A stretch of 42,993 nucleotides of DNA, taken from an uncultured Bacteroidia bacterium. Its GTDB lineage: Bacteria; Bacteroidota; Bacteroidia; Bacteroidales; UBA932. Made by a program: the position numbers and the translations under genes. The stretch spans positions 1-42,993 of the forward strand of contig CACZMF010000021.1 of the NCBI GenBank assembly GCA_902782225.1. The letters are read 5' to 3'. The notes beneath the pieces were generated by a model. That model saw nothing but the letters and a program-made list of their open reading frames with translations. It ran no database searches and was not told the DNA's origin. Below, piece after piece: positions 39,463 to 42,993 of the stretch (its first letter is position 1; each line of letters begins with the position of its first letter).

Positions 39463-40870
<1,408 letters not shown>

Positions 40871-40871
<1 letters not shown>

Positions 40872-42993
40872 GCATTGAAGCCATCATATCGCTGATGAAA
40901 TCCGGAAGACCTGCACTCAGCAGATTTGAAAACATGACGATGATAAGAATAAATACGCAAAGAGAAATTGTAGACCGGTTTAATCGAAGGTATAAAGACT
41001 TCGGTATCTCGGCAAAATGGGATGCCGAAAGTGGAAATCTTACGGCAGACTATGGTGAGCCTGGTAAGCTGCGCCGCATTAATGCAGCCATCATCAAGAA
41101 CATGGAAGAGGAAATTGTCCGTGGCCAGGGCTTTGGTGCAGTCTGGGGCGAAGGACTTAATGACAATGGTGTTCGCGGCGTCATTATCGATGGTCATATC
41201 CATGCAGATGATTTGCGTGAGTTAAAAGAGCGCGGCATCAGTGAAGAGTCTATCAATACCATGATTAAGGCGTACGAGGAAGCCCATGGTGCTAAGATTA
41301 TCGGCATAAATAACTTCCTGAGTCAGTATTCTTACCAGTCCAGTGCGGCGGCAAATGAGTTTAATGCACAGATGGCCAGGGCAGAAACGGATGCGGAAAA
41401 AGCAGAGCTTATCGAGCGCTTTACAAAATCAAATCCGGATTTTTCTATACAGGATATCGCAAATCTGCATACGGACAGACAGTTTGGGCAGAATGACCCA
41501 TTTAATCCCACGAACCGCAACATGATTATCGATTTGGGGGAAAATTCCAAGCAACGGTATGTGGCCGTTCCACTGGAAAATCTTTCCGTAATGGATGCTT
41601 CAAGCGGCAGCGGTGTAATCTCAAGTTCAGAAATCCGCGACAGTATTGGCTCCTTGTCCCATTATTATCAGGAACAGGTTAATCGGGGAGCAACGGTCAG
41701 CCAATTCTACAAAGAGGAATTTGATAAAGGCGTTGACAAGCTGTTAAAAGCCGTTGTAAATCTTTCCGTCCACAAAGAAGGTGCAGCAGCCCAGGTAACC
41801 AGCGACTATATCACAGGTTCTGGAATCTTCAAGGCGGATATTATTCGCATGACGGCCGACAACACCTTTGAGACGTTAACCCGTAACGAGGCAGGAGAAA
41901 TCACTTATGTTGGTAAGAAAAAAGCTTTCAGCTTAATGAACACTGCAATGGTTGATGGCATGAGCCTTGCCGAACACACAAGGCTTGGCCACAACATCAA
42001 TGCAACATTCCTGGGGGAAGATTTCTTCCTGAATGCGCTCCAGGATGAGAGTATGAATAACATCCTTGGGCAGCTCGGAATAAGCGATAGCAAGGCTACG
42101 ATAAACAACTTCCTCGACAACATTAACGACGGCGGCGGTCTTGGTCTGCAGATGCGTCAACCTGCAGAGTATAATACTTCCGTCGGTGGCTCCTATTTGT
42201 TCCTCGACAGAACTTTATCCCGCAATCAGGCGCGTATCACACAAAGCACGCTTGCCGGTCAGAACGGTGATAAGGACGGTGACTTGGTGTACGCCCTCCT
42301 TGCCCGTGCGGATGCCGAAATCAAGGTAACGGGAACAAATGAAAATGGTGAAGCAGTCGTCTTAAAATCATTTAATGCCCGTATCAATAATCTCCAAAAG
42401 AGCCTTATTGAAAACAATCTTGATGTGGATAAAATGGGGATTGAAGGGCTGGACAAGTACTCTAATGTGCAGCTTAGCGTTGGCTTTGCGGGAGGAGACC
42501 CGTTCGAAGCTTATGCTCGTTCAGCAGAGGTAATTGGGACATCATCACTTACCGGTATTAACCGTGATGTTCTGGCGCTTAACGATTTAGATAAAGCCAT
42601 CAGAATCCGCAACGAAAAAGCAGAGACAATGGTCGGCGGCATGGTATGGGATTCCCGTAAACTCACTGTAGGTGAGCGCAATGAGTTTAGCGAAACATTC
42701 GAGCGGGAAATCCAGAACAGCGAAGAATTCCGTCAGGCTATCGAGCAATATAACAGTACAAACAAAAAAGAAATAACGCTGGAAACCTTAGCGTCGGACA
42801 ACCTGGCTACAACGTCTGACGGCAAGGGGATTGCCGATATATATCTGGAAAACAAGTATGGCGGGAAGACCGATTCAGCTGCTTATGGACGGGAAGCAGA
42901 GGTACTTGCCAATCAGGTGAATAAACTCAACATTGATGAGGAAATCGCGGCCCATATGGGTAGAGAACGGGCAGGTATTTTCAACATGAATAC
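40871..42993 (+). CDS. Interior fragment of a large phage-like protein, candidate two-barrel RNA polymerase
   Basis: A frame open for 707 codons from the rRNA junction to the window edge without a stop; both ends are cut off. The base composition is visibly poorer in GC than the host genes, and codon use is different. Upstream of the first ATG (40934) the frame already reads protein-like (IEAIISLMKSGRPALSRFEN), so the true start is lost. At codons 429-431 RQP, and 38 residues later NGDKDGD (465-471, bases 42263-42283). This mirrors the R-x-P and N-A-D-F-D-G-D elements of beta-prime, which are 35 apart, with ARITQSTLAGQ in between like the strand before the metal loop. Three Asp could bind the catalytic Mg2+. 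No other family resemblance is recognised; large tailed phages encode such enzymes. Confidence 0.6.

Follow-up and report, generated by a model that had tools for sequence, protein, structure and literature searches.

The window analysed here is the whole of contig CACZMF010000021.1 (42,993 nucleotides), one of 34 contigs in assembly GCA_902782225.1 of an uncultured Bacteroidia bacterium. Its right end is occupied by a 707-codon open frame (40871–42991, on the forward strand, as are all window features located below save the joint, to which no strand is assigned). We consider it likely that this frame encodes part of a giant virion protein from a jumbo phage with a contractile tail, a protein that would combine a tail-carried virion RNA polymerase in its C-terminal part with a DEDDh exonuclease in its N-terminal part. 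This reading is carried by homology, conserved residues, a barrel prediction, an exonuclease signature and gene position, all obtained by computation; that the protein polymerises, is present in the tail and serves early transcription, and what its exonuclease does, is what we infer. The frame is phage DNA, and its gene is cut by the right end of the contig. The initial annotation had taken it to be cut on both sides, but the 5′ side does not lie at a contig end, and the open frame begins at 40826, within 23S ribosomal RNA (rRNA) sequence. The gene does not begin at the ATG at 40895, because the homologues extend about 2,000 residues further upstream. The phage fragment proper (40958–42991, 678 codons) corresponds to about residues 2038–2725 of a 3081-residue protein encoded in the tape-measure position of a jumbo phage.

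Two short motifs lie in the frame, exactly where the initial annotation had placed them when the translation is re-read: R-Q-P at codons 429–431 (42155–42163) and N-G-D-K-D-G-D at codons 465–471 (42263–42283). Bacterial β′ subunits carry an R-A-P element about 35–38 residues before the aspartate triad of a loop with the sequence NADFDGD, and five of the seven loop residues in the frame are identical to this sequence, as had been claimed. In sequence and in the predicted structure the motif looks like the active site of an RNA polymerase, with R-Q-P the apparent counterpart of R-A-P and the N-G-D-K-D-G-D loop the proposed catalytic element, whose three Asp residues would bind Mg. Taken by itself, the loose pattern R-x-P(33–40)D-x-D-x-D is not beyond chance in the 649 open reading frames (ORFs) of the window and one related phage, where it occurs twice, in the frame and in its homologue, with 0.42 matches expected per shuffled set; for the strict pattern R-x-P(35)D-x-D-G-D the expectation is 0.01. 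It is because the motif is conserved in relatives that it stands above chance.

The motif is set among further elements. A predicted double-psi β-barrel of β′ type spans 41804–42316 (model residues 229–399), with the N-G-D-K-D-G-D loop lying between a helix (375–380) and a strand (389–394). Before the barrel comes a K-x-G ... S-G element (41774–41833), which a family profile aligns to the K-x-G ... S-x-R of the β′ of phage AR9; its lysine, K2310 in the numbering of the relative L035, is invariant in all 12 members of groups A and B, two of the four groups of relatives considered below. The same K2310 was also considered as the lysine of a β-type barrel and rejected, since the AR9 alignment fits a β′ element. 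After the barrel lies the start of a G-x-x-N element (42947–42991; L035 G2720 is kept in 12 of 12 and N2723 in 11 of 12 group A/B proteins), and the next invariant lysine, 2768, falls past the contig end.

What kind of gene does this fragment come from? Six viral contigs (79–235 kb, in three pairs) hold relatives that are 76–83% identical over residues 22–699 of the ORF, and there the full gene has 3,080–3,102 codons. Its downstream neighbour, encoding 2,907 residues, matches the PHROGs family phrog_20474 (labelled endolysin, E-value 2e-177), and in Bacillus phage KLEB27-3, Acinetobacter phage ME3 and Moorella phage MTATph1, each of which also has an annotated tail sheath gene, relatives of that neighbour bear the annotation baseplate protein, hub or endolysin. 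The ME3 annotation links this hub block to phage 0305phi8-36, for which the published description assigns the gene directly before the giant hub, gp146, as the tape measure (PMC2147016). Because the hub-adjacent gene order is the same here, we assign the fragment, on its sequence context, to the tape-measure-position gene of a jumbo phage of the 0305phi8-36 kind, and that phage was most likely contractile-tailed. A related phage of 235,547 bases encodes DNA polymerase III alpha and NAD ligase, with a sheath-like domain only at E 5e-4, under the curated cut-off. The giant hub and DNA polymerase III alpha of the related phage and the annotated tail sheath of MTATph1, KLEB27-3 and ME3 do not bear out a crAss-like context, crAss-like phages being short-tailed; nor had the initial annotation foreseen the tape-measure position, the exonuclease or the chimeric join to 23S rRNA described below.

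The predicted polymerase region lies within the gene in the tape slot before the hub, whose product, going by this position, may be the tape measure. Because it is encoded in that slot, the protein most likely rides in the tail tube, and by analogy with Thermus phage P23-45 it would be carried there and enter the cell with the DNA at injection, where it would start phage transcription at the earliest genes, a task that a tape-fused polymerase performs in P23-45. We infer its virion location from gene position together with the label of one record, that of KLEB27-3 gp034, which reads 'structural protein'. A tentative alternative, which we regard as unlikely but serious, is that the product is a true virion RNA polymerase and no tape measure, being a separate ejected protein encoded between tape measure and hub; it overlaps the tail-tube reading and differs from it only in the place given to the protein in the virion. 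The upstream neighbour gene in a related phage, at 2,234 codons, is long enough for a tape measure, and more than one giant gene is found at this place in KLEB27-3 and MTATph1. Against this stand the tape-measure assignment of the gene just before the hub in 0305phi8-36 and the conservation of the C-terminal end between groups, as is reported for the last 60 residues of gp146 (PMC2147016). In MTATph1 (L031:12039-17552) a tape-position gene of only 1,309 codons precedes a transposase gene; part of this short tape-position gene is similar to the exonuclease region of gp034 of KLEB27-3 (E 1.5e-7), the polymerase motif is absent from it, and the polymerase part may have been lost.

Conservation was assessed in a set of genes gathered for the most part independently of the motif. 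Further phages were found through the hub, and the gene upstream of each hub was then read; a single additional relative, L066, was picked up with a motif-bearing search pattern. The loose pattern is present in 21 of 26 genes upstream of a hub, near-identical members being counted separately, where 0.175 would be expected by chance. In groups A–D, whose members BLAST or profile comparison also connects beyond the motif, it is found in 20 of 20 genes, 19 of them found without the motif, and the twenty-first gene is that of ME3. All three Asp and the R and P are thus kept in all 20, with R-x-P about 35–38 residues before the triad. Alignment A8 (19 rows, mean column identity 23%) has no invariant columns other than R, P and the three Asp, and a smaller set of 12 rows has the same five plus two Gly; since rows were admitted to A8 for having the pattern, which also served as the anchor, this invariance is partly selection and the 20-gene count is the fairer measure. 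Contig repeats (L037-L039, L043, L047, L050, L051, L059 and repeats returned later) were left out, as were L052 and L053, whose hubs are not preceded by the full pattern. Alignments A4 and A8, in which every row bears the pattern and is anchored there, do not include the more distant L054-L058 or MTATph1; A8 also lacks L045, and KLEB27-3 is in neither of the folded alignments. A degenerate DNA pattern for NGDKDGD returned 24 stretches, and by tblastn only those in the six known contigs encode the protein. When KLEB27-3 gp034 alone served as the query, no viral contig matched, and a scan of genome contigs for relatives found none.

Structure and profile comparisons both point to RNA polymerase. 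The AlphaFold model is modest (predicted local distance difference test score, pLDDT, 57; a first model of 1011 residues from 12 sequences was poor, pLDDT 43), yet its structural matches are RNA polymerases in all 50 PDB matches listed (best E 7.5e-6), and it superposes on residues 345–475 of Escherichia coli β′ with a root-mean-square deviation of 4.0 Å over about 120 residues. In this modest-confidence model the triad kept in all 20 genes falls in a barrel matching that of β′, so that the structural check proposed in the initial annotation came out in its favour. The profile check did likewise: a hidden Markov model built from distant relatives without the window's own group reaches the window frame at E 4.3e-6, with the next unrelated ORF at 0.53, while the gene of one relative matches a PHROGs RNA-polymerase family (E 4e-9) and other relatives also match RNA-polymerase families. 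The window protein alone gives nothing of weight in family, PDB or phage-collection searches. PF00623 matches group C, with no match in the related phage; PF00940 (T7-like polymerase) matches none of 11 records, a result that is uninformative since the controls were silent too. Profiles of the active-site region score better with multisubunit β′ than with the crAss-like or P23-45 enzymes, in a comparison where the two β′ sequences used came from a motif-requiring search. The second-best structural match to the model is BFVD A0A8S5SD80, a 'minor tail protein' of Siphoviridae sp. ctnpt50, possibly another tail-fused polymerase, of a third lineage.

The initial annotation had proposed a divergent two-barrel RNA polymerase. 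Of the two barrels it is the β′-type one that the model, the hidden Markov model and the family matches support, the second being putative; the window fragment holds the β′-type barrel only, so that two barrels cannot be judged from it alone. In the upstream part of the full-length protein, outside the window, two lysines about 7 residues apart (L035 K1667 and K1674) are invariant in the 12 group A/B members and are a candidate, from their sequence conservation, for the basic pair of a partner barrel of β type. A different reading, which we think improbable, is that the barrel derives from a polymerase but no longer polymerises, persisting in a tail protein as a relic that serves structure or grips DNA, or standing alone with no partner barrel. 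Three observations weigh in its favour and against a working polymerase. No PDB polymerase matches the K1667/K1674 region, so that a β-type barrel was not found. The fourth loop position varies among relatives (G, S, T or Q). Finally, part of the lineage lacks the pattern: it is absent from L054, L056, L057, L058 and MTATph1, and from L052 and L053 outside the 26-gene set, although L054, L056 and L057 have DxDGD, with no R-x-P at that spacing, and L058 has K-T-P and DTDGD. A relic would not, however, need R-x-P and the three Asp to be kept in 20 of 20 sequence-linked genes despite their wide divergence, and the invariant K1667 and K1674 offer a candidate partner pair. The loops of L054, L056 and L057, the more distant of the tape-position genes, read DVDGD, DFDGD or DNDGD, and these are perhaps more divergent polymerases.

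The exonuclease domain also lies outside the window, in the N-terminal part of the full-length relatives. All 12 A/B proteins share D197, E199, N365, D370, H483, A485 and D488, and the eight C/D proteins hold the same residues, with one G at the A485 position. D-x-E, D and H-x4-D in three motifs form the pattern of DEDDh (DnaQ-like) exonucleases, and all three motifs are present in the full-length relatives. The A/B and C/D profiles (A12 and A9) align over 262 columns at E 1e-14; the group C/D profile matches PDB exonucleases (E 4.2e-4), L066 matches phrog_192, 'DNA polymerase exonuclease subunit' (E 1.3e-8), and the A/B profile by itself comes no closer to DnaQ than E 0.66. Possible tasks of the domain are the trimming of DNA ends, an attack on the host's DNA and proofreading.

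How did phage DNA come to lie next to bacterial rRNA? Positions 39477–40872 belong to a bacterial 23S rRNA gene, of which they are the 5′ part, and lie outside the phage gene (Rfam LSU_rRNA_bacteria, 1044 bits). The uncertain end of this part lies at 40862–40872: the match to the 23S copy of a same-order genome ends at 40862, the 23S sequence may extend to about 40872, and the Rfam alignment continues to 40970, into the phage part. Within this fragment is a 34-base tandem duplication (40586–40653, copies beginning at 40586 and 40620), probably an assembly or sequencing fault. Neither in the 23S copy nor in related phages is there a match for the joint of about 85–95 bases (40873–40957), and DNA similarity to the phage relatives begins only at 40958. 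We conclude that the join is most likely an assembly chimera, with a phage fragment placed in a bacterial genome bin. True integration of phage sequence into the 23S rRNA gene of the host is very improbable: although the contig reads directly from 23S into the phage frame, such an insertion would begin in the middle of a phage gene, with the unexplained joint and the duplication beside it. The G+C content changes from 60% over 1–38000 to 47% from 40958 onward; the 23S stretch matches only once in the assembly, the hub protein of a related phage has no match there (in a search without a positive control), and a profile of the fragment finds the protein in one of 393 genomes of the order, the window's own. 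As for the loop being a calcium-binding loop of an ordinary structural protein, the occurrence of DxDGD in such loops and the one PDB match of the upstream region, to a calmodulin-related protein (E 0.37), speak for it, but it is scarcely credible in the face of the near-fixed R-x-P spacing, the barrel prediction and the polymerase matches.

Among the nearest known systems is gp96 of P23-45, a virion RNA polymerase fused to the tail tape that, in the available parts of its description, transcribes the pre-early genes (Nat Commun 2024, PMC10770324). It too is a giant tape-measure protein, with R-N-P ... D-F-D-G-D. Its polymerase, however, lies in the N-terminal portion (crystallised fragment 327–1124), whereas here it lies near residue 2,450 of about 3,080, and those parts of the description give gp96 a metallopeptidase domain and mention no exonuclease, in contrast to the N-terminal DEDDh domain here (PMC10770324). 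In hhalign the two are not significantly related (E 0.16 and 0.21), though they align near the motif. The β′ of cells and of AR9/phiKZ-type jumbo phages shares the predicted barrel, R-x-P, DxDGD and the upstream K-x-G aligned to AR9; it is a separate subunit, whereas the present region is part of a giant tape-position product with a variable fourth loop position in relatives. The crAss-like virion RNA polymerase of phi14:2 (gp66 of the literature; gp077 of KC821624) is also a giant structural protein, with the loop DFDID at 1361, but belongs to a different phage order and gene context (hhalign E 0.34, not significant). In 0305phi8-36 an RdRP-like (RNA-dependent RNA polymerase-like) enzyme, gp99, maps to the right arm, away from the tail genes (PMC2147016), unlike the polymerase here; the comparison with this phage covers gene order. 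A partial literature search for a polymerase in a tape-measure protein found only P23-45, although the survey in the P23-45 paper may list some of these genes (PMC10770324), and no paper under the names KLEB27-3 or MTATph1.

Some of these phages may encode a second polymerase. In two of the 11 records another large protein, encoded elsewhere, also has a DxDxD loop (L105, DHDGD; L106, DFDID), with weak matches to PF05183 (RdRP; E 1.6e-4 and 1e-3) that are under the cut-off and, in L106, not at the loop; their sequences make non-virion polymerases possible, as in phages with both virion and non-virion enzymes. Related phage G001 encodes at 147702–151004 (L081:7702-11001) a 1,100-residue protein with no Pfam or PHROGs match and with K-Y-P followed some 70 residues on by D-R-D-G-D, by its motifs possibly a second, non-virion polymerase; hhalign of this protein with L105 and A8 is not significant. 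Elsewhere in G001 (197761–210553, L083-L084) lie an RRXRR-HNH protein (L084:8467-9732), 13 transfer RNA-like genes and a transfer-messenger RNA gene with the tag DEVEYRLAA; repeated words upstream of G001 genes are none above shuffles.

For the family as a whole, we give about even odds to a lineage-wide tail-tube machine, a single protein of about 2,400–3,100 residues that joins a terminal exonuclease to a β′-like polymerase near the opposite terminus, which would have an origin separate from that of P23-45 and would enter ahead of or with the DNA, some members encoding a second polymerase for later genes. The fusion of polymerase to tape measure is already known from P23-45; what our results would suggest as new is its occurrence in a different, contractile jumbo lineage, with a β′-like polymerase that is C-terminal where that of P23-45 is N-terminal, and with an added exonuclease. 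If this is true, a second, contractile and very large lineage would make the tail-loaded polymerase a recurrent route to a host-independent start of transcription, and for phages of the 0305phi8-36 kind, among them the cultured KLEB27-3, there would be a candidate for early transcription that can be put to the test.
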